A stretch of 64,000 bases of DNA, taken from positions 32,457,405 through 32,521,404 of the forward strand of contig OX392530.1 in the NCBI GenBank assembly GCA_947623455.1, read 5' to 3'. Of the stretch, positions 3,691 to 64,000 are shown in pieces. Under the pieces are notes generated by a model. The model was not told where the DNA came from. It was given only the letters and a program-made list of their open reading frames with translations, and searched no databases. Source of the stretch: Mimachlamys varia. Taxonomy: Eukaryota; Mollusca; Bivalvia; Pectinida; Pectinidae. How positions within the stretch are numbered: the stretch's first letter is position 1; each line of letters begins with the position of its first letter. A program made the translations under genes and the position numbers.

Positions 3691-5745
3691 TCTCTTCACA
3701 GGCAAGACCAACTGATACCCTCCTTCTGCAAATGCAAATGCATATTTAGTAAATGTATCCTAAGCCCACTCATTTTAATATAATATACAACAATAAGACG
3801 AAACTAAATTGATATTAAATAGAGACATGGATCCTAAAACAAATGTTTCGGGACGACCTTCTGACCCGTGTCAAGGTCGACTTGTTTTGTACACAGTTTA
3901 CAGAGCAAAAATTCATAAAGTGAACACGACCTTCTGACCCGTGTCAATGTCGAGTTGTTTTTGTACACAGTTTACAGAGCAAAAATTCATAAAGTGAACA
4001 CGACCTTCTGACCCGTGTCAAGGTCGAGTTGTTTTTGTACACAGTTTACAGAGCAAAAATTCATAAAGTGAACACGACCTTCTGACCCGTGACAAGGTTG
4101 AGTTGTTTTTGTACACAGTTTACAGAGCAAAAATTCATAAAGTGAACACGACCTTCTGACCCGTGTCAAGGTCGAGTTGTTTTTGTACACAGTTTACAGA
4201 GCAAAAATTCATAAAGTGAACACGACCTTCTGACCCGTGTCAAGGTCGAGTTGTTTTTGTACACAGTCTACAGAGCAAAAATTCATAAAGTGAACACGAC
4301 CTTCTGACCCGTGTCAAGGTCGAGTTGTTTTTGTACACAGTTTACAGAGCAAAAATTCATAAAGTGAACACGACCTTCTGACCCGTGTCAAGGTCGAGTT
4401 GTTTTTGTACACAGTCTACAGAGCAAAAATTCATAAAGTGAACACGACCTTCTGACCCGTGTCAAGGTTGAGTTGTTTTTGTACACAGTTTACAGAGCAA
4501 AAATTCATACAGTGAACACGACCTTCTGACCCGTGTCAAGGTTGAGTTGTTTTTGTACACAGTCTACAGAGCAAAAATTCATAAAGTGAACACGACCTTC
4601 TGACCCGTGTCAAGGTCGAGTTGTTTTGTAGACAGTCTACAGAGCATGTGCCAGGCTATCCGTATGGACCCAGCGATACTATTGACCTAGTTATAGTGAT
4701 TTTCGATTTATTAGAACGTCCCATACCAGACAATGGGCACTACTTAAAATTTAGCAACTAGTAAAAGCATTGTATCATCAAAACTATTCTGTGACCAGTA
4801 AAAACTTCATACAAAATGTACACACATCATCATTTTACTATGTGAGGTAAAATCATAAAGTGAATAATTCCCTGTTAGACGGTAAAGGACAAAGGCGACT
4901 GGTTTTTAAATGAATGTTTACATCAGAAGAACGATCTAAAACATTGTAGAATGTGGGGTACTGATTATGATCAGCGGCGGATCAATCGTGTCCTGAATAA
5001 AAATACAAGATGAAAATGCCTTCTTTCATACTTATCTATAATAGGAGACAACCCAACTTTCACCTGGTTGGTACAGACATAACGACATAAACAGTACTTG
5101 TGTCACATGCGCAAAAAGAGTGTAAATAGTGTAGTTATTTTTTATTAGTTTTTCACCCGTTCATTACACATAGTCTTTCAATCAGATAATCTCAATTTTC
5201 AAATATTTGATTTGTTTTTATTTTGTCATATTCTTAACATAAGTAAACAAAAGGAAATTCCAAACTAGAGTTACACTAATGCTGAACTGCAGACTACTAT
5301 TATAGCGTCCCTACCGGTTGTGTAGCATGGTCATGGGTGTGTTTTAGCACAACGGAAGTTACAGACAAGTGGATAAAGGAAAAACTAATACAGTGTACCT
5401 TTAAAAAAATCTGAACGATATTTGTATTGCTCTGATTTATGTCAAGGTAGACATGCGGTCGTCTGTGCAGACTTAAAATACCTGGTTACGTAAGGTCTCA
5501 CGAGAAATAGGCCAACAACACAAGCGACCTTGCGATATAAACCTTCCACACAAATATCAATATAAAGGTTTAGATGGTCTGTCACTGCCTTTTTCAATTT
5601 TTAACACGAGTTCTTTGTATGAAATGACATTTTTGTGGATTACACAAAACCGATACGATTTGCGTTTGTCTTAAATCAATACACGTGTTCTATGAGAAAT
5701 TGAGTACTGATGAGAAAAAAACACTAATCATGTCAGATTAAAAAA
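3690..5745. repeat. Triplicated segment, copy 2 of 3 (expanded)
   Basis: Second copy of the segment described at 2150-3690. It shares ATACCCTCCTTCTGC (3716 on), the GACATGGATCCT block, the GGCTATCCGTATGGACCC block (4654 on), GATCAGCGGCGGATCAATC (4970 on) and CTGGTTACGTAAGGTCTCAC (5481 on). It is longer than the others because a 74-bp unit inside it has expanded to about eleven tandem copies (3854-4646). The sequence corresponding to that unit appears once in copies 1 and 3. Confidence 0.7.
3854..4646. repeat. 74-bp minisatellite, ~10.7 copies
   Basis: Unit starts fall at 3854, 3927, 4001, 4075, 4149, 4223, 4297, 4371, 4445, 4519 and 4593, a 74-bp period (73 in the first unit). Units differ by only a few substitutions (TTTACAGAG versus TCTACAGAG; AAGGTCGAG versus AAGGTTGAG). 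Each unit opens with a hairpin-capable pair, CGACCTT ... AAGGTCG, separated by 12 bases. The reading frame found here (minus strand, 3987-4190) is only the translated repeat. High unit identity inside an otherwise old, diverged segment points to recent expansion. Confidence 0.95.
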
Positions 5746-15237: not shown

Positions 15238-15849
15238 CATTATTAGGAAATGTTATATAGACAGAGCCACAGTCACTGTTATATAAGAACTGTACCGTGG
15301 ATAGCGAGAAACTTTTTGCCTAGTCAAACTTTCGCATTTCGCCTGCTATTTTGTCCTTATTACGGCGGGCGAAAATTTAACTACAGAGCAAATCTCCTCA
15401 AAAAACACGCAAACTTTTCGTCATTCAAAACTTTGGTAAGCTATCCTGTCACTGTTTGCATAGCAATGGTTTTCAAGTCGCTTTCGCTGTCATTGGAGTC
15501 TTCCTCTAATTATAGGCATTCAATGACAGCAATATGCCCGGGCCATTATTAGGAAATGTTATATAGACAGAGCCACAGTCACTGTTATATAAGAACTGTA
15601 CCGTGGATAGCGAGAAACTTTTTGCCTAGTCAAACTTTCGCATTTCGCCTGCTATTTTGTCCTTATTACGGCGGGCGAAAATTTAACTACAGAGCAAATC
15701 TCCTCAAAAAACACGCAAACTTTTCGTCATTCAAAACTTTGGTAAGCTATCCTGTCACTGTTTGCATAGCAATGGTTTTCAAGTCGCTTTCGCTGTCATT
15801 GGAGTCTTCCTCTAATTATAGGCATTCAATGACAGCAATATGCCCGGGC
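15238..15849. repeat. 306-bp tandem duplication, apparently identical copies
   Basis: Copy 1 is 15238-15543 and copy 2 is 15544-15849, offset exactly 306 bp. By eye I see no difference between them, and the plus-strand reading frames inside them translate identically for 97 residues. The frames (100 and 145 codons) have no recognisable domain. Perfect identity means either a very recent duplication or an assembly artefact; everything around it is diverged. Confidence 0.9.
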
Positions 15850-16268: not shown

Positions 16269-16580
16269 TATACTTCCTTGTTGGTGCAGCTGTAAAATAC
16301 TTCCTAGTTGATGCAGATGTTAAATACTTCCTAGTTGGTGCAGCTGTAAAATACTTCCTAGTTGATGCAGATGTTAAATACTTCCTAGTTGGTGCAGCTG
16401 TAAAATACTTCCTAGTTGATGCAGCTGTAAAATACTTCCTAGTTGATGCAGCTGTAAAATACTTCCTAGTTGATGCAGCTGTAAAATACTTCCTAGTTGA
16501 TGCAGCTGTAAAATACTTCCTAGTTGATGCAGCTGTAAAATACTTCCTAGTTGATGCAGATGTTAAATACTTCCTAGTTG
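16269..16580. repeat. 27-bp minisatellite, ~11.5 copies
   Basis: Unit ATACTTCCTAGTTGATGCAG plus CTGTAAA, period 27. Two variants exist, one with GGTGCAGCTGTAAA and one with GATGCAGATGTTAAA. They alternate at the left end (a 54-bp higher-order unit) while the centre is homogeneous. Because 27 is a multiple of three, the minus strand carries a 149-codon open frame (16165-16614) encoding a nine-residue repeat; no start context, signal peptide or other domain supports a real protein. Confidence 0.95.
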
Positions 16581-20845: not shown

Positions 20846-22515
20846 GCTTTTGATAAGGTATGGCACGAGGAATTACATATGTAATATATAAACTTGAAAA
20901 CCTTGGTATCAAAGGTAATCTACTTAAATGGCTTAAAAGCTATCTTACAAACAGGAATCATTTGTTGTCTTGAACGGCCAATCATCAGAACGCATGTATA
21001 TCAACTCGAGTGTCCCTCAAGGCTCTATACTTGGCCCCCCTATTATTTCTAATATATGTTAATGATTTCAACATTGGAAAACTTTCTGACATAAATTTAT
21101 TTGTAGATGATACATCTCTTTTTATCTGAAATTGATCATCGTGGCTCTATCGAAAACTTGAATGACGATATATCTACTCTATCAAACTAGGCAAAACGTT
21201 GGTTGATAACTTTTAACGCAGCAAAAACAAAACTTGTCTTATTCTCCAAAAAACGTGTTTTAAATCACCCAGATCTCATGCTCAATGATGTCCCCATTCA
21301 GCACGTCAGCACACATAAACACATTGGCATATCACTATCTGGAACCTTGAGCTGGCAGGTGCATATTTTTGATATTGTTGCTAGAGCAAATACAATACTG
21401 GACATATTGCAGTCATTATCATACTTAATCCCTCGAGGCGGTCTAGAGAAAATCTTTAAATCAATGGTCAGGTCTATTCTAGAATATGGCAGTATACTTT
21501 TTGATAACTGTAACCAGTATGAATCAGAACTTATTGAAAGTGTTTAGCGCAGGGCAGCTCTTATCTGCACTGGAGGGTATAAAGTTACCAAACATAATAA
21601 AATTCTATCTGAACTAGGTTGGGAGTTACTTAGTGACAGAAGGAAACATTGTCGATTAAAAATGCTTTTTTTAATTAAACAACAATCTCACTCCCTCATA
21701 TTGAAATCCGTCTGTCCACTTCTTTGTCATCGCACACAAAATTACAACTTTAGAAATTCCAACACACTTTTCCATATTCCTTCTAGAAAGTCATTTTATC
21801 ACCAATCTTTCTTTCCAAACACAATAAGAGACCTGAACAACCTCCCTGAACATATTCGGAACAAACCTTCTCTTGGATCTTTCTCACAAACCCTATCAAA
21901 ACTCTCTACTCCAGCCTCAAAACCTTTATATATTTATGGTCATGGGAAAGGAAAAATTAATCACTGCAGACTAGGAATGAGCCTTAATGCTCTAAACAAA
22001 CACAGATTTTTATACCGATTAACATCCAATAAATTTTGTGACGTCTGTACTTATTTCCCTGAAGACAAAAAACTCTTCTTTTTGACCTGCCCAAAATATA
22101 AAAACTTGCGTATGAAATTGCTTCGAAAATTGGCTCCAAATGCCAATCCAAACCTTATTGTAAATCTTATGCCTGATATCTATGTACAAATTCTATTATA
22201 TGGTTCCAACAATAATACCGAATCCTCAAACCAAACTATTTTTGACTCTGTATTTGAATATATCATTGCCTCAAAAAGGTTCTAACTTCATCATCTGAAT
22301 TAACCCTCTCCCCCGCCTCTTTCTTTGCTCTATCTTTCCCCTTCCTCTTCTCTTCATTTCTTTATGTTATGGCGTGTATGTGTGAGTGAGAGAGCGTGTG
22401 TTGTGATCACGTTTTGTAAATATTTTATTGTTTTATATGTAGAGGAGAGCATCATGTAGCCCTAGGGCTGTTTGTAATCCTCTTTAAACAAATAAAGAAT
22501 TAGAACAAATTACAA
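20846..22515 (+). pseudogene. LINE (non-LTR retrotransposon) remnant, 5' truncated, reverse transcriptase and C-terminal part
   Basis: Translation with frameshifts reads AFDKVWH, then LENLGIKGNLLKWLKSYL, VPQGSILGPLLFLIY, LFVDDTSLF, WLITFNAAKTKLVLFSK, HKHIGISLSGTLSW and ILEYG. These are the fingers-palm and thumb motifs of non-LTR reverse transcriptases; the catalytic box is FVDD where FADD is usual. A 207-codon frame (21662-22285) is the C-terminal region with GMSLNALNKHRF and CDVC ... CPKY, a degraded zinc-knuckle-like motif. Stops at 21128 and 21188 and frameshifts make it a pseudogene. The N-terminus and endonuclease are missing. The 3' end, about 22285-22515, ends in AAATAAAGAATTAGAAC. 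Clade not assigned. Confidence 0.9.
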
Positions 22516-26546: not shown

Positions 26547-26590
26547 CAAGTTTACGGAAGCCGGTTAGTGCCACATGAGGTTAACTTTTT

Positions 26591-26827
26591 ATGTCGTAAT
26601 TACGACTTAGTATGTCGTAATTACGACTTAGTATGTCGTAATTACGGCTTAGTATTTCGTAATTACGACTTAGTTATCTCGTAATTACGACATAGTTATC
26701 TCGTAATTACGACTTAGTTATCTCGTAATTACGACTTAGTGTGTCGTAATTACGACTTAGTTATCTCGTAATTACGACTTAACTTTCTCGTAATTACGAC
26801 TTAGTTATCTCGTAAATACGACTTATG
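26591..26827. repeat. Left array of TCGTAATTACGA palindromes (11 units)
   Basis: Period 21-22 bp. Two spacer types alternate, CTTAGTATG and CTTAGTTATC, between palindromes. Units are highly similar with occasional substitutions (e.g. GTAATTACGG, GTAAATACGA). Confidence 0.95.
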
Positions 26828-27180
26828 GAATATCTTATGTGTAGCAATGCTCAATATTGTAGACGCTCTCATTGGCCAAAGTGCTATCTACGTACCTGGG
26901 ACAGCCACTGGCTGAATTGAATGGGTATAATAAACTAACTTACCTTAAATTAACAACAGCAAATACTCCAAGACAACCGTTCCAATGAAAACACAGCATT
27001 ATACAGAAACAATAATGATAATGATATTTATTCAGATAAAAGGAAAAATTAAATACTTAAAACTTTTGAATTTAAAATATTACAGATGGTAATTATAATA
27101 ACAGATTTTGAATTGAATTCCTTGGGATAGCCCATATAAAGCCGTAAAGGCTTATTTGCTGCACATAAGATATTCCATAA

Positions 27181-27416
27181 GTCATAATTACGGGATAACT
27201 AAGTCGTAATTACGAGATAACTAAGTCGTAATTACGAGATAGTTAAGTCGTAATTACGAGATAACTAAGTCGTAATTACGACATACAAAGTCGTAGTTAC
27301 GAGATAGCTAAGTCGTAATTACAAGATAGTTAAGTCGTAATTACGAGATAACTATGTCGTAATTACGACATACTAAGTCGTAATTACGAGATAGGTAAGT
27401 CGTAATTACGACATAA
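27181..27416. repeat. Right array of TCGTAATTACGA palindromes (11 units)
   Basis: Inverse of the left array, again 11 units of 21-22 bp, with variants such as GTCGTAGTTACGAG and GTCGTAATTACAAG. The copy number equals that of the left arm although the variant units differ in position. Confidence 0.95.
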
Positions 27417-31974: not shown

Positions 31975-32090
31975 GGGGCCACTAGCATCACTGAAGAGTC
32001 CTTGGAGGACAGAACCGCTGTATGATGCAGTTATATTCATTTTTACGGTGCAGCATAAGTGTGTTACGTCATCTTTAACTAACAACGTTA
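31975..32090 (+). mobile_element. Rep-B copy 1 (hammerhead element fragment)
   Basis: Member of the hammerhead-bearing family Rep-B (see 37040-37275 for the best copy). It starts at the CACTAGCATCACTGA block and continues through GATGCAGTTATATTCATTTTT, GGTGCAGCATAAGTGTGTTA and CGTCATCTTTAA. A short deletion removes part of the segment between ATTCATTTTT and GGTGCAGC. The 5' half of the family, with GACCCTTCTGCTTCTAC, is missing. Confidence 0.8.
31985..32028 (+). ncRNA. Hammerhead ribozyme, degenerate core
   Basis: Stem I GCATCA (31985-31990) pairs with TGATGC (32023-32028). The core CTGAAGA fits CUGANGA. Stem II GTCC/GGAC is perfect. The third core block reads AGAAC where GAAAC is required, so G12 and A13 are altered, and stem III is CC/GC-mismatched. 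These bases are essential in known hammerheads, so this copy is predicted inactive. Confidence 0.75.
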
Positions 32091-33714: not shown

Positions 33715-34330
33715 TAACTACACGATAAACGTGACTATCTCAAATTTCCGATCGTGAACTTTCCCTTCCTTGAAAGTAACATCCCTTCTTTTGCAACCTA
33801 TGGTTTTTACATGTCGCAGTTGATTTGTTATTCTAGGGCCTGGTCTAAATATCGAGATTTTAGCAATCGTTGTCGACTGCTGACAAACAAACTAATAACA
33901 AAGGATTCCAGAGATGCAGGTTGATCAGAACTTGGGCAAGTTTTATGGTCACCGTATGTGTCTTTTAAGTGATATGAGGATGGACGTTTTTGAGTATGCT
34001 CATTATTTTGTTTACTTGTGATTAATAATGATAACTCGGTTCTCGTTTGCAGAATTGATGTTTACTTGGATGTGACCAAGATCTACATGTCGGTTGTTGT
34101 CGATGAAGCAGAAGTAGAAGTCGCTTACTCTTTCGGAACACCTGGTCTTTTTATCTTGTACTTCTACAGGGGTTTCCATGTAGATCTTTCCTTTGTTCAT
34201 ATTTTGTCCCTAGTTTAATCGATTTAGAGTTCGGAATATGGTTTTGTTTACGCTTTGGTACTCTATAATTTTTTTACAACTTTCTCATTCCTAATGTGTC
34301 CATTATCATTGTCTCAGGTTTGGTCTATAG
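33715..34330 (+). repeat. Rep-A dispersed repeat, near full length (reference copy)
   Basis: The longest copy. Left end ACGATAAACGTGACTATC; then TCTAGGGCCTGGTCTAAATA, GATATGAGGATGGACGTTTT, TGATGTTTACTTGGATGTGA, GTCGTTGATGAAGC-like (here TTGTCGATGAAGCAGAAGT), CTTACTCTTTCGGAACACCT, GTACTTCTACAGGGG, TCTTTCCTTTGTTCATATTT, and right end ATGGTTTTGTTTACGCTTTG. A 66-codon frame (34018-34218) spans the middle and resembles frames in the copies at 38347-38595 and 55833-56015 (shared VYLDVTKI, VDEAE, GTPGL, LLYFY). Lack of long frames and frequent indels elsewhere argue for a non-autonomous mobile repeat. Confidence 0.85.
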
Positions 34331-34860: not shown

Positions 34861-34995
34861 TAGGAGGCGTCCATACAGTTTGAATGACGAAACAGCTGTA
34901 TGATGCATTTTAATTCTATTTTTTCGGCGTACTGTATCTTTTACTAAATTTAACAGGTTCAGCACGTGTGTGTTACGTCATCTTTGAATGTATAG
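34861..34995 (+). mobile_element. Rep-B copy 2 (hammerhead 3' half intact)
   Basis: Contains GACGAAACAGCTGTATGATG (34886-34905), TTTTTTCGGCGTACTGTATC, and TGTGTTACGTCATCTTTGA. The left part is diverged: the CTGATGA block is not present at its expected place (TCCATACAGTTTGAAT instead). Predicted ribozyme-dead because the first core block is lost. Confidence 0.8.
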
Positions 34996-35630: not shown

Positions 35631-36843
35631 TAATAATTGTTTGATTTATTTACCATTTTTTGTTAGCCTAAAATTAGATAGTTTAAAAAGTTTGTACTCT
35701 GTAATATCTTATGATATTTTAGTTATCATAATAATTCATGTCTATATTTTTGTATCAGTAGTATTATCGGTTTAATATAAATTTGAATGGGTATCTGATA
35801 CTTTGTATATTCGTTGTTATAATATTTGTCATATTCATTCATGAAAAGTGATAGGTAAACTAAAAATTTACAATATTAAAATTAATGAAAACGTAAACAC
35901 ATTTGCTTATCTCAGTAATTTATGTAAAATGAATAATCTAATATATACTCTGAATACCAAAACAGTTGAAACTCCAGACTTTGACGATTGGCACGAATCA
36001 AATTTTAACATTACCATATGATAATTGAAAGAATTAAATCCTTATGACTATATCGGATATAAATGAAAATATTACGAATAGGACCCTTAAACGACGATTT
36101 TTTTTTACCGAGACAAAAATGTATGTAAAGCTTAAGCATAAAACCATATCATGAAAGTAATGTTTAAATCACTGATTTTTAAACATTGTTTATAACTAAA
36201 CACATTATACAAATGTCATATGATGTCAAATTATCAACCCCAGATTAGTTTTACAGCAGTTATATTCATTCTTTATATTTACTTTATAAAGAAATGTGTT
36301 TATGGAATTTACTTACAATTACGTTAAGCTGAATGGCTTTATAATTTTCTGTACCGTGATCTCCGAATATTACGTTTATTTGACACTTTCTCATTGTAAC
36401 TTCAGCTCCAATACTTAAATACTAAGGGAAAATGAGACTCACATACCAATATGACACTTTCAGACAGAGAAATATAAATTGAAAATAAAAATATCTTATA
36501 ATTGGAATTTAAAAGAATCAGAGTAATAGAAGTTCAGACGTTGACAGGAACGTCACAATTAATAAAAACGATTTTAGTAATGTTTGTGTGTCTGTGTTTT
36601 CATAAGGGTGGACATTTTGAACATTCATTGTAATCATAGAAATATGCAATACTACCTGTAATTGTATACAATCGTTACCTGTCGTAATAGTTAAGGATTC
36701 CCAACTCATAATTTTTAACGGTCTATATCATTATATTACTACATGTTCGGGTAGAAATTAAAGATGTATTAAACTTTTACCGTTCGTGGAAACACAATCA
36801 GACAATAAAGCCTTGTAAAAAAGGTATTGGTGCCTGTTTGATT
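35631..36843. other. Noncoding AT-rich stretch
   Basis: No gene or repeat recognised; very AT-rich. Confidence 0.45.
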
Positions 36844-36941
36844 GATTACCAAAGGTAACCAGACTCTGTTGGTGATTTGTTTTAGTTCCCGTGATTACCA
36901 AAGGTAACCAGACTTTGTTGGTGATTTGTTTTAGTTCCCGA
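36844..36941. repeat. 49-bp tandem duplication
   Basis: GATTACCAAAGGTAACCAGA ... TGGTGATTTGTTTTAGTTCC occurs at 36844 and again at 36893, differing by one base (ACTCTG versus ACTTTG). GGTAACC is a short palindrome inside each unit. Confidence 0.95.
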
Positions 36942-37039
36942 GGTTTGCTGGAGCCTCAATAGCCACAGTTAAACTCATATGAGTAGTTGCACGGTACATA
37001 ATATACACATTTTCGTAGTACACTATTTGAAATTATACA

Positions 37040-37275
37040 GAAACAGTTTAATTTTACTTGCAAATTCATAAATTAAAGGGTTTTTTATGCACTTGACCCT
37101 TCTGCTTCTACATTAGTTTAGAAATTGGATTCCCACATTTTGCCACCTAGCATCACTGATGAGTCCTAAGATGACGAAACAGCTGTATGATGCAGTTTAA
37201 TTCGTTTTTTTTGGTATACTGTATATATTAAATTTAAAAGGTGCAGCATATGTATGTGTTACGTCATGTTAAACT
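37040..37275 (+). mobile_element. Rep-B copy 3: hammerhead-bearing non-autonomous retroelement (best copy)
   Basis: Order of blocks: TTCATAAATTAAAGGG (37064 on), GACCCTTCTGCTTCTACATT (37095 on), GTTTAGAAATTGGATTCCCA, the hammerhead (37150-37193), TTCGTTTTTTTTGGTATACT, AAAAGGTGCAGCATATGTAT and GTGTTACGTCATG (37257 on). The same order recurs at 52545-52780 and, in part, at five other places. The size (~235 bp recognised) and a type I hammerhead with a tiny stem III match known metazoan retrozymes; hammerheads of this kind also sit in Penelope-like element terminal repeats. No protein-coding capacity, so mobilisation would depend on a partner in trans. Confidence 0.85.
37150..37193 (+). ncRNA. 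Type I hammerhead ribozyme, complete conserved core
   Basis: Stem I GCATCA (37150-37155) pairs with TGATGC (37188-37193), six perfect pairs. Core 1 CTGATGA (37156-37162). Stem II GTC (37163-37165) pairs with GAC (37173-37175), with loop CTAAGAT. Core 2 GAAA (37176-37179). Stem III ACAG (37179-37182) pairs with CTGT (37183-37186) with no loop. Cleavage triplet GTA ends at A37187, so self-cleavage is predicted between 37187 and 37188. All invariant positions known for hammerheads are satisfied. Loop-less stem III is unstable in a monomer; known relatives act as dimers. Activity is inferred. Confidence 0.88.
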
Positions 37276-37371
37276 ACTTTAAGAGGAAATGCCAAGAATT
37301 TTTTTTTAAATGCCAACATAAACTGTTGTATCAAAGTGATGATTGTAATGTTTCTACATATTTTTGTTGAC

Positions 37372-37495
37372 GGACGGCGCAGTGGATATCCAACTTGTCG
37401 CTCGCCTAGACGACCGAAGTTCGATTCCATAATCAGACATGAAAAGGTATGGCGTCGCCTTCCCACCTAGGCGAAAAGATGCGGTTTCTTCGAGT
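37372..37495 (+). mobile_element. tRNA-derived SINE, family 1, copy b (decayed)
   Basis: GACGGCGCAGTGGATATCC (A box, from 37373) and GAAGTTCGATTCCAT (B box, 37416-37430) are followed by GAAAAGGTATGGCGTCGCC and a decayed core (CACCTAGGCG ... GCGGTTTCTTCGAG). The order equals that of the 2385-2552 element, on the opposite strand. A TCATAA insertion-like change follows the B box. Confidence 0.75.
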
Positions 37496-38280: not shown

Positions 38281-38440
38281 TGTTACCATTCACAAAAATA
38301 TGGACAAGGTAATGTCATTCACAAACTAGGGGCAAAGTTATACTATTCATAAAATAGGGGCGAAGTAATACCATTCACAAAAATACAAAAATATGGACAA
38401 ATAAATGCCACTAACAAAATGGGGCAAAGTTATACTATTT
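38281..38440. repeat. Degenerate ~28-bp tandem repeat
   Basis: Units of the type ACCATTCACAAAAATATGGA, CATTCACAAACTAGGGGCAA and CTATTCATAAAATAGGGGCG follow each other at about 28 bp, four to six diverged copies. CTAGGGGCAAA equals the Rep-A (reverse strand) word ACTAGAGGCAAAATA, so the array seems to have grown from the right end of the adjoining Rep-A copy. One more unit lies at 38681-38710. Confidence 0.65.
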
Positions 38441-38660
38441 ACATGGAGACTCTTGTAAAAGTACAAGAGAATAAGACCAGGTGTTCCGAGAGAGTAAGCG
38501 TCTTTTGCTTCATCGACGAAATACACCATGTTAATCTTGGTCAGATCCAAGTAAACATCAATCCTCGAAATGAGAACCGAGTCATTGCCAATCACAACAA
38601 TTAAGCATACTCATGAGCATACTCAAAAGCGTCCATCTTCATATCACACAAATATGTTTC
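38436..38660 (-). repeat. Rep-A dispersed repeat (minus strand)
   Basis: Reverse-strand landmarks: ACATGGAGACTCTTGTAAAA, AATAAGACCAGGTGTTCCGA, AGTAAGCGTCTTTTGCTTCA, TCGACGAAATACACCATGTT, TCCAAGTAAACATCAATCC, GTCCATCTTCATATCACACA. An 82-codon frame on the minus strand (38347-38595) shares VYLDLTKI, VDEAKDAYS, GTPGLILLYFY with frames in other copies. Confidence 0.9.
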
Positions 38661-38839
38661 TAATGAGACAAAGATGGCAACCAAGTAATACCATTCACAA
38701 AATACGGACAACGTTTTTACGATTGTCTGTTTGTTGACAAACTGAGGGCAAAATTAATAAGAGATCCGAAGGTCTTCAAATCCCCTTTGTGGTTTTTTTA
38801 TTTTACTTTCTAGTCTGAAATATACCTTATTTTATTTAA
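38661..38839. other. Short unassigned interval between Rep-A copies
   Basis: Contains one more diverged 28-bp unit (near 38690) and a T-rich tract. No gene. Confidence 0.4.
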
Positions 38840-39245
38840 CTTAGTATTGTTGACACAGAAATCAGAGAATGCCGAAGCGACAACAAAACCGTTATCTGAA
38901 CTCAGAATTGATTAACCTAGGGGCAAATTATGAAAGAAATATTAACATCTGTACATTGAAACTCCTGCAAAAGAATAAGAAAATAAGACCAGGTATACAG
39001 GAAGAGTAAGCGTCTTCTGCGTCATCGACGACACCCGCCATGTAAATCTTGGTCAAATCCAAGTAAATATCAAGTCATCAAAGTGAGAACCGAGTCATCA
39101 TTCCCAATCACAATAATTAAGCACACTACATAATTATACAAAAACGACCACCTTCAATTCATACAAGGATACAAATGTTTTCTCAATGATGGTGACCATA
39201 ACACTTACTCATAGTCGTCACGTTTATCATATAGCTTACCAATAT
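38840..39245 (-). repeat. Rep-A dispersed repeat (minus strand), long copy
   Basis: Starts with AATCAGAGAATGCCGAAGCG and includes GTTATCTGAACTCAGAATTG, AATAAGACCAGGTATACAGG, GCGTCTTCTGCGTCATCGAC, ACACCCGCCATGTAAATCTT, CCGAGTCATCATTCCCAATC and GTCACGTTTATCATATAGC at its far end (39216 on). The far end fixes the left terminus of the family near TATGATAAACGTGAC. Confidence 0.9.
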
Positions 39246-40074
39246 GCTGTCCATGTTAATCATAGTTTTTGTCGAGGTAAGCAGCTGATTTAGAAGAAGC
39301 TGTTGTGTCCTTTATTTCAAGTGCAGAAGGGTATATACAATCGACAATTTCAAATTAAAAGAAGTGACAAGGTTTTTGTTACCTGTCCTGATTATTTCTT
39401 CCACAAATTCATCCTCGTATGCAAAAAAAACAAAAACAAGTCATGTTAAAGTGGGCACAGTTTGTTTCCATGGAAATTCTAACTGGAAAATCTTTCCCCC
39501 AAACTCAGCAAACCAGCATAAAGCAATACCAGTGACAAATCAAGTGATAATAAACATGCAGTAAACAATAAGAGTATATCTTTACCAAATTACAAAGAAA
39601 TGATTAACGTTAAAAAAAAAATTGACATGTTACATGGACAAAATAAAACCAAGGATAATGTTTTATTATTGTTTAGTTTTTATTCCAATAAACTTTATTA
39701 TTGATATTGAGGTCAGTCATGTGCTGTCCCTACCATTCTGTGTCATTGGTTGTCCATGCTCCAAGTAAGTAACCAAGGACACCGAAAGGTATGCACGTGG
39801 CTGACGTCGATCTTATTAATATAACGAAAAATGCCACGATCACTGGGGACAACTTTAAAACCTGGAAATGACTTGTGCTTTTGTGGTAGACTAGAGTATA
39901 CATTTAGCGTGCATGAACGGGGCTTTTGAAAAAAGGTTCTTTCGTACGGTACCAAGATGTTTTTGCGTACAACAGGTAAAAGCTTGAATTTTGATGCGAG
40001 AAAGCTAGGTGAGGACGAATTTTCGACATCGTGAGCTTGCCATCACGTTTAACTCATGCTCTCCTGAAATAGCG
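39246..40074. other. Noncoding; no clear feature
   Basis: Frames at 39364-39564 (plus) and 39743-39955 (minus) have no recognisable domain. Confidence 0.4.
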
Positions 40075-40180
40075 TAACAAAAACACCAGAGAATACCAAA
40101 GGGTCAACAAAACCATAATCCGAACTCAAAATCGATTAAACTAGAGGCAAACTATGATCAAAGGAAATATCTACAACCTT
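40075..40180 (-). repeat. Rep-A right-end fragment (minus strand)
   Basis: CAGAGAATACCAAAGGGTCA, ACAAAACCATAATCCGAACT, CAAAATCGATTAAACTAGAG and GCAAACTATGATCAAAGGAA. Only the right terminal ~100 bp of the family, then it stops. Confidence 0.85.
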
Positions 40181-42764: not shown

Positions 42765-43545
42765 GCGCCGCAAATACTCCGGCCCCTGTGTATGCGTGCA
42801 AACATAATCCTCTATAAGGATGCAAACCCTACCCCATTTACTCCGCCCTAATCTGTAATATTAAGACACATATTCCCCGGCCCCTGTATATGCACGAAAA
42901 CAGTATTCCTATCAGGATACAAACCCTATCTCATGAACTAGGCCCTGATCTGTAGTACATTTTGTATTATGACACATAGTCATCGGCCCCTGTGTATGCA
43001 TGTAAACACAATCTCTATAAGGATACAAACCCTATCCTATGTACTAGGCTACGATCTGTAGTACATTTTGTATTATGACACATAGTCCTCGGCCCCTGTG
43101 TATGCATGTAAACACAACCTCTATAAGGATACAAACCCTATCCTATGTACTAGGCTCTGATCTGTAGTACATTTTGTATTATGACACATAGTCCTCGGCC
43201 CCTGTGTATGCATGTAAACACAACCTCTATAAGGATACAAACCCTATCCTATGTACTAGGCTCTGATCTGTCATCGGCCCCTGTGTATGCATGTAAACAC
43301 AATATCTATAAGGATACAAACCCTATCCTATGTACTAGGCTATGATCTGTAGTACATTTTGTATTATGACACATAGTCATCGGCCCCTGTGTATGCATGT
43401 AAACACAATATCTATAAGGATACAAACACAATCCCGTGTACTTGGCCCTGGTCTGTAGTGTTAAGACACATGTAGTCCTACCCCTCTGAATACATGAAAA
43501 CACAATCCCTATAAGGATACAATCCCTATCTCATGTACCAGGTTT
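42765..43545. repeat. ~106-bp satellite-like tandem array, 8 copies
   Basis: CGGCCCCTGTGTATGCATGT recurs at 42780, 42878, 42984, 43090, 43196, 43275, 43381 and (diverged) about 43479. The main period is 106 bp, with outer units of 98 bp and one 79-bp unit (43196-43274) that lost 27 bp. Each unit carries ATAAGGATACAAACCCTATC and GTACATTTTGTATTATGACA. Inner units are nearly identical and edge units diverged, the usual pattern of array homogenisation. Confidence 0.95.
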
Positions 43546-43769: not shown

Positions 43770-44138
43770 ATCAAAATGTATTGCTCGCCATCTTTGTCTA
43801 TTTGGAAATATTTTGTATCCTTGTGTGAAATGAAGATGGACGTTTTTGAGTATGAGCATTAGTGTGCTTAATTGTGATTAAGAATGTTGAATCGGATCTC
43901 ATTTTGAGGACTTAACATTTACTTGGATGTGACCAATGCACATGGCAGATTGTGTCGTCGATAAAGCAGACGCTTACTCTTCCGGAACACTTGGTATTAT
44001 CCTCTTGTACTTTTACAGATGTACCCATGTAAATATTTCCTTTGTTCATTTTTTTGCCCCTAGATGATTCGACTTTAAGTTCAAACTATTGTTTTGTTGA
44101 CGCTTCGATATTGTCTGATTTTGTTTAATCTTTTTCAA
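43770..44138 (+). repeat. Rep-A dispersed repeat
   Basis: Blocks TCGCCATCTTTGTCTATTTG, GAAATGAAGATGGACGTTTT, GAGTATGAGCATTAGTGTGC, TTACTTGGATGTGACCAATG, GTCGTCGATAAAGCAGACGC, TTACTCTTCCGGAACACTTG, TTCCTTTGTTCATTTTTTTG, TTGTTTTGTTGACGCTTCGA. A 3-bp deletion and a stop after the DVT-like word disrupt the family reading frame. Confidence 0.9.
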
Positions 44139-51589: not shown

Positions 51590-51812
51590 GTTCCCAATTT
51601 TAAATCACAAGGGGATTAACGCACCTGCACTTCTACTTTTACAATAGTTTATAGTAATTTGGATGTCCATTGTTATGACCCCTAGCATCAGAGTTGAACC
51701 ACTTAGGGACGAAACAGCTGTATGGTAAATTGGTATTCATGTTCGTCATGTTGTATTAGATTCAATAGGTGCAATCATTGTTAATGTGCATTTTACGTTC
51801 ATATTTCACGAT
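51590..51812 (+). mobile_element. Rep-B copy 4 (most diverged long copy)
   Basis: Blocks TTAAATCACAAGGGGATTA, GCACCTGCACTTCTACTTTT, ACAATAGTTTATAGTAATTT, GACCCCTAGCATCA, GGGACGAAACAGCTGTATGG and TAGATTCAATAGGTGCAATC. The order is the same as 37040-37275 with many substitutions, so this is an older insertion. Confidence 0.75.
51685..51729 (+). ncRNA. Hammerhead ribozyme remnant, first core block lost
   Basis: GCATCA (51685-51690) and GACGAAACAGCTGTATGG (51708-51725) survive, so the GAAA block and ACAG/CTGT stem III are intact. CTGATGA is replaced by GAGTTGA, and the 3' strand of stem I (TATGGTAA) no longer pairs well. Predicted inactive. Confidence 0.7.
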
Positions 51813-52544
51813 ATATCAAATTATATGTTTTAAAGGTGGCAGACTTTTGAAAGTACGTAACTATAAAAAAATATTAAAAACGTTTCCTTTTTTATTTGTT
51901 TATCAGATTGACTCGACACATCCGTCAGAGTTTTGAGTATAAACAGCCCGCAGTGACTAACAACGGAAGTTTGAAAACCGGTAACAGTAGAAAGAGTTCG
52001 TTAAGGGGCGGGTAAGTCACGATCCGGGATATTGTACCAAAAGACATACATCAGGAACTGCCGGAAGATAACGCCCGTGGAATTTTTGGAAAGATTGTGG
52101 TGAAATAAATAATAAAAAATATAAGGATTTCACAATATCTTATAATGATTACAACATATAGCCTGGGGGAAAACGCATACAAATGGATATATTACAATGT
52201 ATGACATGTACTTTAAAAATATAGTATTTGTTAAGTCATAGTGTACCGTACATCACACTTACAGACGCCCACACTTTCTCTAATTTCTATCCCTACCCCA
52301 GCCTCCTCATCCCATACACACCCACTCCCCCGTGCTATGTAGTGCAGTATTTTATACTTTGTGATTATTGCCCTGACGATTGCGGTCTTTATTCCTGAAG
52401 GTGTGTTTTGTGATCAAACGATTGCCACTCTTAATCTCAATATTTCGGTTTCGTAGTCTTCTGTGAAGGTCAACGTTGAATCGAAGTACAAAAGAAGGCC
52501 ACATAGCCGAAACAATTATACTGGTATATGTTTATCAAACCTGT
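51813..52544. other. Noncoding; no clear feature
   Basis: Nothing recognised in this AT-rich interval. Confidence 0.4.
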
Positions 52545-52785
52545 TGCTTCTAAAGTCATAAATTGAAGGGGTTTTACACACCTGACCCTTCTGCTTCTAC
52601 ATTAGTTTAGAAATTTTGGATTTCCACCTTTTGGCCCCTAGCATCACTGAAGAGTCCTAGGAGGGCAAAACAGCTGTTTGATGCAGTTAAATTCATTTTT
52701 TTCGGCATAATGTATCTGTTAAAACATTTAAAAGGTGCAGCAAATGTATGTCTTACTTCATGTTTCCCTACGGGGAACATTTTGT
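52545..52785 (+). mobile_element. Rep-B copy 5 (long copy)
   Basis: Blocks GTCATAAATTGAAGGGGTTT, CCTGACCCTTCTGCTTCTAC, GTTTAGAAATTTTGGATTTC, CACCTTTTGGCCCCTAGCAT, TTCATTTTTTTCGGCATAAT, TTTAAAAGGTGCAGCAAATG and TGTCTTACTTCATG. It aligns along its full recognised length with the copy at 37040-37275, including the 5' part missing from most others. Confidence 0.88.
52641..52684 (+). ncRNA. Hammerhead ribozyme with single core substitution (G12A)
   Basis: Stem I GCATCA (52641-52646) pairs with TGATGC (52679-52684). Core CTGAAGA fits CUGANGA. Stem II GTCC/GGGC is paired with one G-U. Core 2 reads AAAA instead of GAAA. Stem III ACAG/CTGT is intact and the cleavage triplet is GTT. The substitution falls on the catalytic G12, so a strong loss of activity is expected. 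Confidence 0.8.
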
Positions 52786-53210: not shown

Positions 53211-53639
53211 GAGGGGTTCCATTTTAAACTGGTTAAACTTTTCGGACTATCGCAAGGAGGGTTACACAATCATACCGCATGCTGTTGTAAAAGCAAGTGG
53301 TTTCGTCATGATGCAGTTTTCGAACATACTTAACATATTTAAAATTTGAATGACACGATTTTGAATTAAAAACACAAAAAAACCTACATCACGACGTTGA
53401 TTTAGTGTATCACAGGTTTGAATATAAATCATAACAATATTTTCAACGTAAATCAAAAAGTTTATTTATCAAACATGATTTAAAAGTCGTCGAATCATTA
53501 ATCGCAGTAGTTCGAATATTAAAAACATGAATAAAACATTAAAATAAAGAGATTTGTGCAACGACACCGCTGATTTAAGTATACAACAAAACATCCTGAC
53601 ATGGTGTTGACAGTATTTACATCGTTGTGTTAACTAGTT
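53211..53639. other. Noncoding; no clear feature
   Basis: AT-rich interval, nothing recognised. Confidence 0.4.
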
Positions 53640-54127
53640 AATATTTGAGAAGTGAAGGTTTAACACAACAAAATGTTAGTCATATTACACTCTAACACAC
53701 ATTGCTATTGATGATGAGTTTGATAAAGGTGTACATTGTTGTATTGAATGAGTAATGTCAGTGATGCCAGTGAATATTTGAGAAATGAATGTTTAACAAC
53801 AAAAACATGTTAGTCCTATAACACTATAACACACATTGCTATTGATGATGAGCTTGATAAAGGTGTACATTGTTGTATTGAATGAGTAATGTCAGTGATG
53901 CCCGTGAATATTTGAGAAATGAATGTTTAACAACAAAAACATGTTAGTCCTATAACACTATAACACACATTGCTATTGATGATGAGTTTGATAAAGGTGC
54001 ACATTGTTGTATTGACTGGGTAATGTCAGTGATGCCAGTGAATCTTTAAGAGATGAATGTTTTAACAAAACAAGTAACTCTGTTACAGTCTTATAGCACA
54101 CATTGCGATTGATGACAAGCTTAATAA
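53640..54127. repeat. 134-bp tandem repeat, ~3.6 copies
   Basis: Units start (AATATTTGAGAA) at 53640, 53773, 53907 and, as AATCTTTAAGAG, 54041. Each carries GAATGTTTAACA, TAACACACATTGCTATTGAT, GATAAAGGTGTACATTGTTG and AATGAGTAATGTCAGTGATG. The middle two units are almost identical, the outer ones more diverged. Confidence 0.95.
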
Positions 54128-54291
54128 AGCTAGGAAATTAAAACAACATACGCTATCCCCGGCACACGTCCGCACATTCACGCATATACAACTCATTTTG
54201 AGATATGTCCTTAAATGACATTAGCTCTTGGTACAAAACTTAAAATGTAGATAAATAAAATTAAGCCAACCAAAAATATAGGAAGATTACG

Positions 54292-54402
54292 AAACACACA
54301 CTTATGCTGCAAAATTTCTACACTATTGTGAAAACAGAAGGATCAGGTGCATAAAACCCCTTTAATTTATGAATTTATAAGTAAAATTAAACTAGTTCAA
54401 TG
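54292..54402 (-). mobile_element. Rep-B copy 6 with the ribozyme deleted
   Basis: On the minus strand: GTTTAATTTTACTTATAAAT, TTCATAAATTAAAGGGGTTT, TATGCACCTGATCCTTCTGT, ACAATAGTGTAGAAATTTTG, then directly CAGCATAAGTGTGTG. In full copies the hammerhead and ~110 bp lie between GAAATTTTG and GCAGCATA. Here they are joined, so the whole ribozyme has been excised or skipped. Confidence 0.75.
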
Positions 54403-55769: not shown

Positions 55770-56310
55770 ATTAAACTATCAAAGAATACCAAGCGTCAAC
55801 AAAACCATAATCCGAACTCAAAATCGATTCAACTAGAGGCAAAATAGGAGAACAAAGGAAAGATTCACACGGAGACCTTCGTAAAAATACAAGAGAATAA
55901 GATCAGGTGATCCGGAAGAGTAAGCATCTTCTGCTTCATCGACGATCCCCGCCATGTTAATCTTGGTCACATCCAAGTAAGCATCAATCCTTAAAATGAG
56001 AACTATCAATGTCAATCACAACAACTAATTAAGCACACTTATAAGTAAACTCAAAAACAGCCATCTTCTTATCACACAAAAATACACGTGTACAGAATAT
56101 TTCTCGATCAGATCAAGATGGCGACCAATCTATCACAAAAATCTCGATGTTCAGAGCAAACCCTAGAATATCGAATCAACTCCGACATGTAAACACCATA
56201 TGATGGAGAATCACGGATGTTACTATCAAGAAAAAGAAAATTCACGATCAGAAAATCGAAATCATCTCGTTTATCATACAGCTAGCTAATTAGTAAGCTG
56301 TTTAAGTTAG
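55770..56310 (-). repeat. Rep-A dispersed repeat, near full length (minus strand)
   Basis: Includes the right end (CAAAGAATACCAAGCGTCAA, CATAATCCGAACTCAAAATC) and the centre (AATAAGATCAGGTGATCCGG, AGTAAGCATCTTCTGCTTCA, TCGACGATCCCCGCCATGTT, TCCAAGTAAGCATCAATCC). It reaches the left end (CTCGTTTATCATACAGCTAG, 56266-56285), so both termini of the family are visible. A 60-codon minus frame (55833-56015) is shared with other copies. Confidence 0.9.
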
Positions 56311-57589
56311 AAACCTTATATTGTAACTTGTATTTTACGAACGCAAGCATATAATAAAGAATATTGAATAAATTGCCACATGCATTGTAGGCAAGGAAGA
56401 TGGATTTATATACAATATACATAACTCGAAGTATTTTCTTTATATGAAATTTAAATTGTCACGATTAAGGTCATTATTATTTTGCCACATTTAAATAAAA
56501 GAGCGACGCGAAAAGATGTAGATTTGTTTGTGGAATAACTATATCAAGTTCACCGATCTCATATTTTTTAAGAAATTTATAACGAGCGTTGCACATGCAT
56601 AGTTTTTTGTCTTATTGGCACGAACATGTATTCATTTGTTGTCTTTTAATTGGTGTATTTTGACCAATAAAATGTTAAATCGCCGACGTTGTATATCAGT
56701 TAATAGATCAGAATGATAAATTTAAAAACAGTCGGTTATTCTGTAAAGACGTGTTTAACATTGACAATCACTGTATATTTACGACTGTCTGCTGGCTTAT
56801 TATAGCCCGAGAGTGTGTACAGGTGTGGTAATCAATATCAATTAAGTGACATACCTCCACGTGTTTCCGGATTCTCGAGCATTACTGTCTGATCATCAAA
56901 TCGTTAATAGTTTTATTTGAAAATTGCAAATGTGATATTTATAAGCCCTACCACAGATGAATCGATTTTAAAACATGTAGCAAAGTATTCTGAAATTATC
57001 TATTTTAATCTGAGTTCTGCATTTCAAATCACTTTGATGAATGGTACAGACAGCTCTATCAGTAAAATAAAAATCGAATATTAAAAAAAAAAAAACATGC
57101 TACAATAATTTTGCTATATCATTGTCACATTATTGTCATAGTTTTATTTCCTGTTTGTTTTTGGGGAAAAAACCTATCGCTGTTTCTGCGAGGTTAATCA
57201 TGGTTCACGAGGGCAAACCTGCATAACGGGACTATATAATTTATCTGATCGGAACAAAAACAAAATTAACAATCCAATTAAAAACAGAAACAATAATAAA
57301 TATCATGGTGTCGTGTCATTGTTGTCGTCTGCTTCCGTAGTTCGGAACTAGGTTCTGGTTGCTCCTATCGATATTTCCTAGAAATGGAGACATAATCGGG
57401 TAAACCTGGGCGCGTGCTAGCGACATGATTTTGTAGTTCCCTGTCATGTGAAAAATATCATCAAATCAGTCAGGAAGTTATAAAGATGACGAATAGTAAT
57501 ATATCATTTAGTTGCCTTTAATTTGAAATGATCAAAATGCATCATTGATGCATGAATAAATCTTAACAAATATGCTACTCATTAGTAAG
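56311..57589. other. Noncoding AT-rich stretch
   Basis: No gene or repeat recognised; an A-run at 57081-57093. Confidence 0.45.
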
Positions 57590-57872
57590 CGTAATTGTTA
57601 TGATTGACAATGATACTCAGTTCTCATTTTAAGAACTTGATGTTTACTTGGATATGACAAAGATTTACATGGCGGGTGTTGTCGATGAAGCAGCAGACGC
57701 TTACTCTCCCGGAACACCTGTTCTTATATCTAATGTATTTTGTAGGGGTCTCCATGAAAATATGTCCCTTTTGTTCATATTTTCCCCCTAGTTTAATCGA
57801 TTTTAAGTTTGGATTATGGTTTTGTTGACGCTTCGGTATTTTTTAATGTTTGTTATTGTCTATCTTACAGTA
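57590..57872 (+). repeat. Rep-A dispersed repeat
   Basis: GTAATTGTTATGATTGACAA, TTGATGTTTACTTGGATATG, ATTTACATGGCGGGTGTTGT, CGATGAAGCAGCAGACGCTT, ACTCTCCCGGAACACCTG, GTCTCCATGAAAATATGTCC, TAGTTTAATCGATTTTAAGT, ATGGTTTTGTTGACGCTTCG. Confidence 0.9.
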
Positions 57873-60064: not shown

Positions 60065-60375
60065 ATAACAAAAATCAGAGAATACAAAAGCGTCAACGAA
60101 CCATAATCTGAACTCAATATCGATTCAACTGCAAACTATGAATAAAGGAAGGATTTAAACAGATACCCTTCAAGAAGTACAAAAGAAAAAAACAAGCTTT
60201 TTCGGAAGAATAAGCGTCTTCTTTCCCGCGATATAAACTAGGTCACATCAAAGTAAATGTAACGTCATCAAATGTATAATCTTATTCTCAGCATGTAGGT
60301 ACATTTAGTATATTAAAAAGCGGCAAACTTCCTATCATATACGAATGTAGAATGGCTCTCAATGAGACCAAAATG
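60065..60375 (-). repeat. Rep-A dispersed repeat (minus strand)
   Basis: AATCAGAGAATACAAAAGCG, ACCATAATCTGAACTCAATA, GGAAGAATAAGCGTCTTCTT and GTCACATCAAAGTAAATGTA. The centre has lost ~25 bp around the CATCGACGA word. It faces the next copy (60515-60692) as an inverted pair. Confidence 0.8.
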
Positions 60376-60514
60376 GCCTATATCATATTTGTGATTGAAT
60401 AAAGAATTGAAATAAAATCCTTTATAGACGGCACATCACAATTTAACTGAAAGTGATATTAAAATATTTGACAAGGTTTAGGTTACCTGGCCTGATAAGC
60501 TATTCGACAAATTC

Positions 60515-60692
60515 AGCTATATATGGAAACAAAGCCGAAGATGATTACTCTTTCGGAACATCTGGTCTTATTATCCTGTGCTTGACGAGGGCCTCCATGT
60601 GAACCTTTCCTTTGTTCATATTTTGCCTAGAGTTAAGTAGATTTCGAGTAGGGATTATGGTTTTGTTGACGCTTTAGTATTCTCTGATCTTC
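60515..60692 (+). repeat. Rep-A dispersed repeat
   Basis: GAAACAAAGCCGAAGATGAT, TACTCTTTCGGAACATCTGG, GTGAACCTTTCCTTTGTTCA, TTATGGTTTTGTTGACGCTT and AGTATTCTCTGATCTTCC. Right two-thirds of the family, 5' truncated. Confidence 0.85.
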
Positions 60693-61336
60693 CCCCCACC
60701 TCACCCCTACAATTATTGAAACATTAATTGTGCTCTGTCATTTCTACAAAGGGCGCTGCCATCTTGCTATGATAAAAATAACTGTAAACTCAAGGTCGCA
60801 GTATACAATAACAATTTCAAATATGTTTCTTTAACTTCGTATAGCCGAGATCCAGTGTTATCCATTTCGTATAGGTCGCACGTTCTTCTGATAAAACTTA
60901 ACTTATATCTCATCATAGGATTGACATGTTGACTCAAACTCAAACAATAATGTTTGCAATTTCATATCTGTGTGTTCCATTGGCATCATGAAAATTGCAG
61001 CTTTCTAATTAAGCGATTATAATTCATTGTATTGCGGCTGAGAATCGGTGTTGTTAATTTGAATAAGATAAATAGTATCTTATTTAGTTTAACTAATTTT
61101 CTTTTACCAAACGTAACACAAATTTTTAGTGACTTAAACAAAACCGTCCTTTCTACACTCAAAGAAACAATTCATTTATACAATGAATTGTAATGTGTTT
61201 CAATTAGGGTTTTAAAACATAAAGAATCTAACCCATTTAGAAATATCAGCTATAACTTTAGTTCGCGCTGTCCTAATGATTCATTTGGTACCAACTGTTA
61301 AATCCTTAAAATATTTTCTCAATATTTATTTGTTTA
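60693..61336. other. Noncoding; no clear feature
   Basis: AT-rich; nothing recognised. Confidence 0.4.
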
Positions 61337-61435
61337 AAGATGACGTAACATACACATATTCTGCACCTCTTACATTTAGTAATAGATACAGTATGCCGAA
61401 AAAATGAATTAAACTGAATCATACAGCTGTTTATT
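61337..61435 (-). mobile_element. Rep-B copy 7, 3' half
   Basis: On the minus strand it reads AAACAGCTGTATGATTCAGT, TTAATTCATTTTTTCGGCAT, ACTGTATCTATTACTAAATG, GAGGTGCAGAATATGTGTAT, GTTACGTCATCTTT. It starts inside the hammerhead (TAAACAGCTGTATGATTC, with GAAA changed to TAAA) and lacks everything upstream. Confidence 0.8.
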
Positions 61436-63714: not shown

Positions 63715-63872
63715 ATTCCTTCACACAGCCATGATCCGAACTCAAAATCGATTAAACTACAGTTGATTACATAAAAGGGGACCAAAGCATGTGTTCCGGA
63801 AAGGTAAGCGTCTTCTGCTTCATCGACGACACCCGCCATGTAAATTTACGTCACATCCTAGTAAATGAAACT
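63715..63872 (-). repeat. Rep-A dispersed repeat (minus strand)
   Basis: CAGCCATGATCCGAACTCAA, AATCGATTAAACTACAGTTG, CATGTGTTCCGGAAAGGTAA, GCGTCTTCTGCTTCATCGAC, GACACCCGCCATGTAAATTT, ACGTCACATCCTAGTAAATG. About 70 bp between CTACAG and GTGTTCCGG are shortened. Confidence 0.9.
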
Positions 63873-64000
63873 GAGAACTAGGACATTTGTTTTACAAATT
63901 TGAAGCAACATGACATAAAAATCACCACATAACCATATATCAAGGATACAGGATACTTCTGAATAAAATAATCTTAAAATAGATATTAAGTTATAGTTAA

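Follow-up and report, generated by a model that had tools for sequence, protein, structure and literature searches.

A type I hammerhead motif in a high-copy, retrozyme-like repeat of Mimachlamys varia

What should be made of a hammerhead ribozyme motif that lies, apparently complete, within a repeat scattered through a genome? Positions 37150-37193 of the window, by which we mean the whole 64,000-nucleotide stretch of Mimachlamys varia DNA analysed here, raise this question. A sequence-only reading had described there a type I hammerhead inside a dispersed repeat with a unit of about 200 bp, had pointed to hammerheads with very short stem III that act as dimers or in circular or concatemeric RNA, and had taken this one for the living member of its family.

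The letters and coordinates of the motif, its invariant bases and the predicted cut after A37187 are exactly as that reading gave them (Table 1). The site carries the CUGANGA and GAAA sequences, a UH cleavage site and three stems with stem I open, the arrangement that defines type I hammerheads. Stem I has 6 bp, stem II has 3 bp, with a C.U mismatch replacing the fourth pair of the family consensus, and stem III is the palindrome ACAGCUGU. Because stem I has no internal loop, the tertiary contacts between stems I and II that mark canonical retrozyme hammerheads are absent from the window hammerhead. The covariance check that had been suggested gave a divided answer: Rfam RF00163 (Hammerhead_1) matches at 25.9 bits (E 0.00025 in a 301-bp scan), a score that falls under the gathering score of 34, and two Rfam scans of the whole window, at the gathering threshold and with E up to 5, do not return the window hammerhead. 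With a structural descriptor that combines the core with a stem I of at least 4 bp, a stem II of at least 3 bp and a stem III of at least 2 bp, it is the sole site in the window.

Table 1. Positions of the hammerhead, of the copies of its repeat and of other features in the window
Feature	Position	Strand	Remarks
Type I hammerhead ribozyme	37150-37193	+	core intact; predicted cut between 37187 and 37188
Hammerhead segment GCATCA	37150-37155	+	
Hammerhead segment CTGATGA	37156-37162	+	
Hammerhead segment GTC	37163-37165	+	
Hammerhead segment CTAAGAT	37166-37172	+	
Hammerhead segment GAC	37173-37175	+	
Hammerhead segment GAAA	37176-37179	+	
Hammerhead segment CAGCTGT	37180-37186	+	
Hammerhead segment A	37187	+	
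Hammerhead segment TGATGC	37188-37193	+	
Retrozyme-like unit copy with hammerhead (window copy)	36909-37270	+	unit positions 101 to 84, counted from the cut
3' tail of window copy	37188-37270	+	family copies tend to end here, unit 80-90
49-bp head-to-tail duplication at 5' end of window copy	36843-36940	+	97% match; tandem repeat table and alignment with relatives
Copy B	52541-52768	+	CTGAAGA; GAAA changed to AAAA; Rfam 25.2 bits
Copy C	61335-61432	-	5'-truncated within hammerhead
Copy D	34880-34986	+	5'-truncated within hammerhead; flanked by TTTGAATG
Copy E	54281-54392	-	internal deletion removed hammerhead
Copy F	31977-32080	+	internal deletion; GAAA changed to AGAA; flanking repeat TTTAACT; Rfam 14.1 bits
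Copy G	51598-51809	+	core CTGATGA changed to GAGTTGA; no Rfam match
tRNA-derived SINE look	37366-37464	+	GGCGCAGTGG ... GTTCGATTCC; downstream of the element; 71-72% match between the two places
tRNA-derived SINE look	2453-2551	-	as above
Two inverted arrays	26589-26825 and 27178-27416		22-bp palindrome-rich unit (TTATCTCGTAATTACGACTTAG); 93% complementary
Tandem repeat	3853-4646		74 bp
Tandem repeat	15238-15849		306 bp, two identical copies
Tandem repeat	16270-16580		27 bp
Tandem repeat	42859-43271		106 bp
Tandem repeat	53636-54068		134 bp
Two open frames	21191-22285	+	resemble the end of a LINE-type reverse transcriptase
Second dispersed repeat family	1041-2121, 33964-34286, 38437-40175, 43940-44136, 55773-57864, 60087-60695, 63715-63887	both	repeat families D5, D8, D9, D11-D13 and D15

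The hammerhead does lie inside a dispersed repeat, as had been noticed, and seven copies of this repeat fall in the window. The copy that holds it is 90.2% identical to a first consensus, with a start and an end that recur in relatives; measured against a second consensus it is 88.9% identical (11% diverged) and covers unit 101 to 87. An earlier candidate, a 223-bp element with its 5' end at 37046, was overturned by the copies found elsewhere in the genome. The whole hammerhead region is kept in four of the seven window copies, and the core is intact in the 37150-37193 copy alone. A fair covariance score does not by itself imply activity, because copy B, presumably dead to judge from its changed GAAA, scores almost as high as the window hammerhead. 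The window also contains features of other kinds (Table 1). ARAGORN reports no tRNA over its length, and the longer of the two frames at 21191-22285 has no Pfam match above cut-off and no relative in a protein search at E 0.001.

Beyond the window, the core pattern CTGANGAGTCN{3,12}GACGAAACAGCTGT has 4,954 exact matches in the 975-Mb genome, the window copy included, and the reversed control has none. Most of the 100 places listed among these matches read CTGAAGA, so the CTGATGA of the window copy (N7 = T) is a minority state; its own variant, CTGATGAGTCN{4,12}GACGAAACAGCTGTA, occurs exactly 75 times (the window and 74 others, 41 of which lie in the 40 six-kb loci that we fetched), and the reversed pattern is again absent. 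A first look with the 223-bp part gave 3,592 genome candidates. The 40 that were scored align over almost the full length; apart from the window copy itself, these copies (39 in number) have 87-89% identity. Leaving out the window copy and one in L049 gives 38 similar copies, chosen by their similarity to the window copy. Their consensus ribozyme, GCATCA CTGAAGA GTCC TAGGA GGAC GAAA CAGCTGTA TGATGC, has perfect stems, and 30 of the 38 have intact cores. Rfam lists five of six hammerheads in four similar loci at 29.9-32.4 bits, one with a dead core. Hammerhead pattern scans of viral contigs gave no match; in prokaryote genomes one scan gave none and a loose pattern gave six, about the number that we estimate for chance.

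Several of these loci have histories of their own. Two near-identical loci 0.96 Mb apart on C6 (L028 and L029), with flanks common to both, look like segmental duplications, as do four copies with an identical loop at C17:5746637-5925820. At L027 (about 2740-3127) and L030 (about 2828-3126), each element copy adjoins an inverted piece of its own sequence, an arrangement that a strand switch by the polymerase might produce. An open frame with BTB and BACK domains adjoins a family copy at L021:3957-5219 on the minus strand.

Alignment of relatives and the spacing of dimers both give a unit of 379 bp, and the proposed length of about 200 bp is wrong. The unit is non-coding and, numbered from the cut within the hammerhead, consists of a tail (1-85), a 5' region of 256 nt (86-341) and the hammerhead (342-379 plus 1-6). 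In several loci among the aligned relatives the tail (..GTTACGTCATCTTT) joins the 5' region (ATGATAGGGGGTGGCAGACTC..) directly. The search for tandem dimers bore out the expectation, with this larger unit: L058 and L088 are head-to-tail dimers whose hammerheads, at positions 227 and 606 of the fetched stretch, are spaced by 379 bp. Both cores are intact in L088, and one of the two in L058 has CAAA for GAAA. Because just 2 of the 38 fetched copies are near-complete dimers, in stretches that allow about 1.9 units, most copies are single or partial units. A further 1.46 units lie on the reverse strand of L022 (5370-5900), the later hammerhead having GAGA for GAAA and the earlier having been missed by the scan. 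Unit GC is 38.8%, and no LTR was recognised in the aligned copies. Folded as a 379-nt circle, the unit is mildly more stable than its shuffles (z -2.0), which the 223-nt part is not (z 0.14).

The ends of the copies indicate how they may have been inserted. Among 102 copies from the window and the fetched loci, with four array loci left out, 68 have a 3' end at unit 80-90, about 85 nt past the cut; the remaining 34 end elsewhere, and the 5' ends vary. Flanks were compared for the 65 usable copies, namely those with a 3' end at unit 80-90, excluding L029, copies near locus ends and both dimers. Direct repeats of at least 7 nt flank the insert in 10 of them, where 200 re-pairings gave 2.0 on average and never more than 6. 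The mean shared flank length is 4.82, a value that none of the 200 reach, against 4.33 when re-paired. In several cases (L055, L064, L065 and L073) the duplication takes in CTTT or ATCTT from the tail itself, a hint that priming may use short homology. Sixteen inserts extend upstream into the preceding tail or hammerhead, and their starts relative to the cut are -88, -30, -4, -3, 6, 12, 14, 18, 19, 32, 50, 58, 64, 64, 82 and 84; the value of 32 is that of L081, which may lie further up owing to an internal deletion. These starts gather near the cut, with 8 of 16 between -30 and +19, and are thinner just past the ribozyme, a pattern seen in a small sample. None falls exactly at +1, and the idea that 5' ends lie precisely at the cut was rejected. 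The distribution fits a template whose 5' end would be near the ribozyme, or a polymerase that stops at the ribozyme structure.

Folding predictions agree with the proposal of dimer action, which is also how small Penelope-type hammerheads work (PMC7761336, PMC6466107). Alone, the window ribozyme is predicted to misfold, the hammerhead fold having -4.0 kcal/mol against a minimum of -9.0 kcal/mol. Two window ribozymes together are predicted to form a double hammerhead with an 8-bp stem III at -23.9 kcal/mol, and the CTGAAGA consensus reaches -33.3 kcal/mol. This prediction depends on the variant, because both the consensus written with CTGATGA and the bare array unit described below, when given as two separate strands, prefer other duplexes; on a single strand, two array units pair through their palindromes.

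Is the window copy, then, a working member of the family? Across the 38 relatives, 8 of 456 core cells differ against 314 of 6,966 in the flanks (raw p 0.003). When the flank is limited to positions at which the window copy equals the consensus, the comparison becomes 8 of 456 against 188 of 6,147 (p 0.15), and purifying selection on the cores of individual copies, the better conservation of core than flank that had been anticipated, is not significant after this ascertainment control. The window copies likewise show no better preservation of the ribozyme than of the flank (25 of 176 differences against 94 of 593; p 0.64). Single copies are thus without significant selection; that the consensus is perfect suggests a multiplying source that retained its ribozyme.

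Of the readings that compete for this locus, the least credible is a chance motif or a C/D-box snoRNA. Three C/D-box families do match the same place, weakly (13.2-14.3 bits, E 1.8-6.2), and the structural descriptor finds nine sites in 600 dinucleotide shuffles. Just three of those nine have a stem I of at least 6 bp and so match the quality of the window site; the reversed-pattern controls are zero, and the family is spread through the genome with a perfect hammerhead in its consensus, all of which makes this explanation extremely improbable. We regard the hammerhead at 37150-37193 as real, by its letters and its family, with self-cleavage a prediction. It is very unlikely that the window copy actively gives rise to the family and to circular RNAs. 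It does have the sole intact core among the seven window copies, yet a neutral copy at 8-10% divergence would keep its core with a probability of about 0.3-0.4, and four of the seven retain the hammerhead region at all. The case against a source is made by its 88.9% identity to the consensus, its broken stem II pair and its minority N7 base, set against 4,954 core matches genome-wide and intact cores in 30 of 38 relatives, and the label of living member is not supported. The window copy is most likely an old, inert relic of a single-unit insertion; it could cleave if transcribed beside a second copy, and nothing marks it as a source.

A more serious alternative is an autonomous Penelope-like element, of which the repeat would be the terminal repeat plus tail and the dispersed copies the 5'-truncated ends. 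The genome contains 15,646 first-look candidates (150 scored) for the reverse transcriptase (RT) motif LYTTIPH, known from Penelope-like elements, and the RT query fragment itself has a weak Pfam match to RVT_1 (E 0.009). Minimal type I hammerheads with a palindromic stem III are of the Penelope-like type (PMC7761336, PMC6466107), and in an Anolis element reverse transcription begins 111-118 nt inside the ORF with the cut at +26, which places the insert end 85-92 nt past the cut (PMC11167929), close to the value of about 85 found here in 68 of 102 copies. Against this, the tail of the 379-bp unit leads back to the 5' region without any coding sequence in between, and the unit has no ORF for RT plus GIY-YIG between repeats. 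Of the 40 six-kb loci, 6 contain RT fragments (two of the 6 are duplicates of a single locus), where we estimate about four for chance, and the fragments show no tie to the unit. Only in L016 does a fragment share the ribozyme strand, and that locus has another opposite; in the remaining five, all are on the opposite strand. In the one stretch read upstream of an RT, 1,298 bp in L093, neither a hammerhead-like motif nor a significant unit match appears. We consider an autonomous Penelope-like origin unlikely.

We propose instead, with good though not full confidence, that a non-coding retroposon of high copy number, one of the metazoan non-LTR retrozyme type, left the window copy behind long ago as a single-unit insertion, a reading that draws on the core, the 379-bp dimers elsewhere, the preferred 3' end, the variable 5' ends and the excess of direct repeats as read from sequence. 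In the mechanism that we envisage, multimeric transcripts would cut themselves, mostly as double hammerheads joined by the palindromic stem III, and a host ligase may then close the cut monomers into circles, a step most likely performed by tRNA ligases in animal retrozymes (PMC7229834). A reverse transcriptase acting in trans would start at the CUUU end of the tail on a nicked target and copy toward the hammerhead. Circular RNA from the family is plausible by analogy with the published mussel case (PMC7229834). Penelope-like elements are proposed helpers in the mobility of animal retrozymes (PMC7229834, PMC7761336). With its thousands of copies, the 3' end that they favour, their target duplications and the clustering of 5' ends near the ribozyme, the family makes the question of how such elements move testable from one genome.

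The genome also contains arrays in which hammerheads follow one another head to tail with a 45-bp period. They occur in 4 of the 40 fetched loci (L020 with 23 units, L044 with 16, L048 with 5 and L047 with 3 scored); their 5' flanks differ from the window family, and in three of the four loci their 3' tails are related to the family tail. Exact array junctions number 211 genome-wide, against zero for the reversed control, and the 100 that were listed fall into 20 loci, where 72 of 80 within-locus steps are exact multiples of 45 bp. Over 47 array units, which are not independent, the counts of variant cells are 3 of 282 for CUGANGA, 12 of 188 for GAAA, 30 of 235 for the loop and 22 of 141 for the linker. 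Cores are intact in 22 of 23 units in L020, 3 of 3 in L047, 7 of 16 in L044 and 1 of 5 in L048, many units of the last two loci being dead.

Because stem III is a self-complementary palindrome, junctions between two units can form type III hammerheads. At L020:2980-3030 Rfam reports one across two units at 50.9 bits (gathering 48.5), with a closed stem I, an open stem III and a full core: stem III is built from the palindromic CAGCTG of both units, and TGGTG-AAA-CATCA provides the closed stem I. Rfam lists its remaining 21 matches in L020 as type I, at 25.7-34.4 bits. The core and at least 7 of 8, 4 of 5 and 3 of 4 type III pairs are present at 26 of 43 junctions, which denotes a capacity to form and not a predicted fold. 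The type III fold is the predicted minimum-energy structure at none of the 43, because stem I shifts by one register (-18.9 against -16.0 kcal/mol). Tentatively, and with slightly less than even confidence, we suggest a sister subfamily whose unit has been reduced to the ribozyme, with every junction able to form a type III hammerhead (3-nt stem I loop) and with transcripts that would break down into 45-nt RNAs, possibly circles. If true, a weak, dimer-dependent type I ribozyme would have become a row of stronger type III ribozymes, a satellite made of the ribozyme alone, and the arrays would represent a simple sequence route from the one type to the other. Long arrays of 220-240-bp retrozymes, with up to 62 units, are described in a coral (PMC7229834). 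We found no published description of bare-hammerhead arrays in a search of the literature outside Cervera and de la Pena 2014 and Lunse et al. 2017, and their novelty is not established.

How does the family compare with known systems? With the minimal hammerheads of Penelope-like elements and Terminons (Cervera and de la Pena 2014; Lunse et al. 2017) it has in common a stem I without a loop, a very short, palindromic stem III and the expectation of dimer action, and with the Anolis Penelope-like element insert ends about 85 nt past the cut (PMC11167929). Unlike those elements, its unit has neither reverse transcriptase nor endonuclease. Schistosoma Sm-alpha, Sj-alpha and W-elements are likewise short dispersed repeats with a hammerhead (PMC8490949); Sj-alpha is called SINE-like, whereas ARAGORN finds no tRNA gene in this window. 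The satellite hammerheads of newt and axolotl resemble it in a weak palindromic stem III and dimer action, and differ in forming 330-350-bp tandem repeats and in that one of two axolotl types keeps all loop contacts (PMC7229834).

Retrozymes are recognised by a hammerhead in a unit of 150-450 bp with at least head-to-tail dimers, by GC below 50%, by the lack of an LTR, by target duplications longer than 4 bp and, at the RNA level, by expression as linear and circular monomers. The family shows the unit and the dimers, with the window copy a single unit, and likewise the low GC (38.8%, within the range of published metazoan retrozymes; PMC7229834), the lack of an LTR and the duplications, with at least 7 nt in 10 of 65 copies. 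We file it as retrozyme-like with a minimal hammerhead because the loop contacts are missing, but those of the mussel family are mostly missing too (PMC7229834). Of the original interpretation, the type I hammerhead with very short stem III, the retrozyme-like repeat and the genomic tandem dimers stand, and the living member is not supported. The closest published match is Mytilus galloprovincialis (Cervera and de la Pena 2020, PMC7229834), where about 5,000 hammerheads in two families of 350-390-bp repeats lack most loop contacts. The two systems agree in ribozyme type, repeat length, number of ribozymes, low GC, tandem copies and the lack of most usual loop contacts, a likeness drawn from the published description. 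In contrast to the mussel, the copies here are mostly single or partial units with a preferred 3' end and CTTT-type junctions. The window feature belongs with this known retrozyme-like kind and is probably inert.
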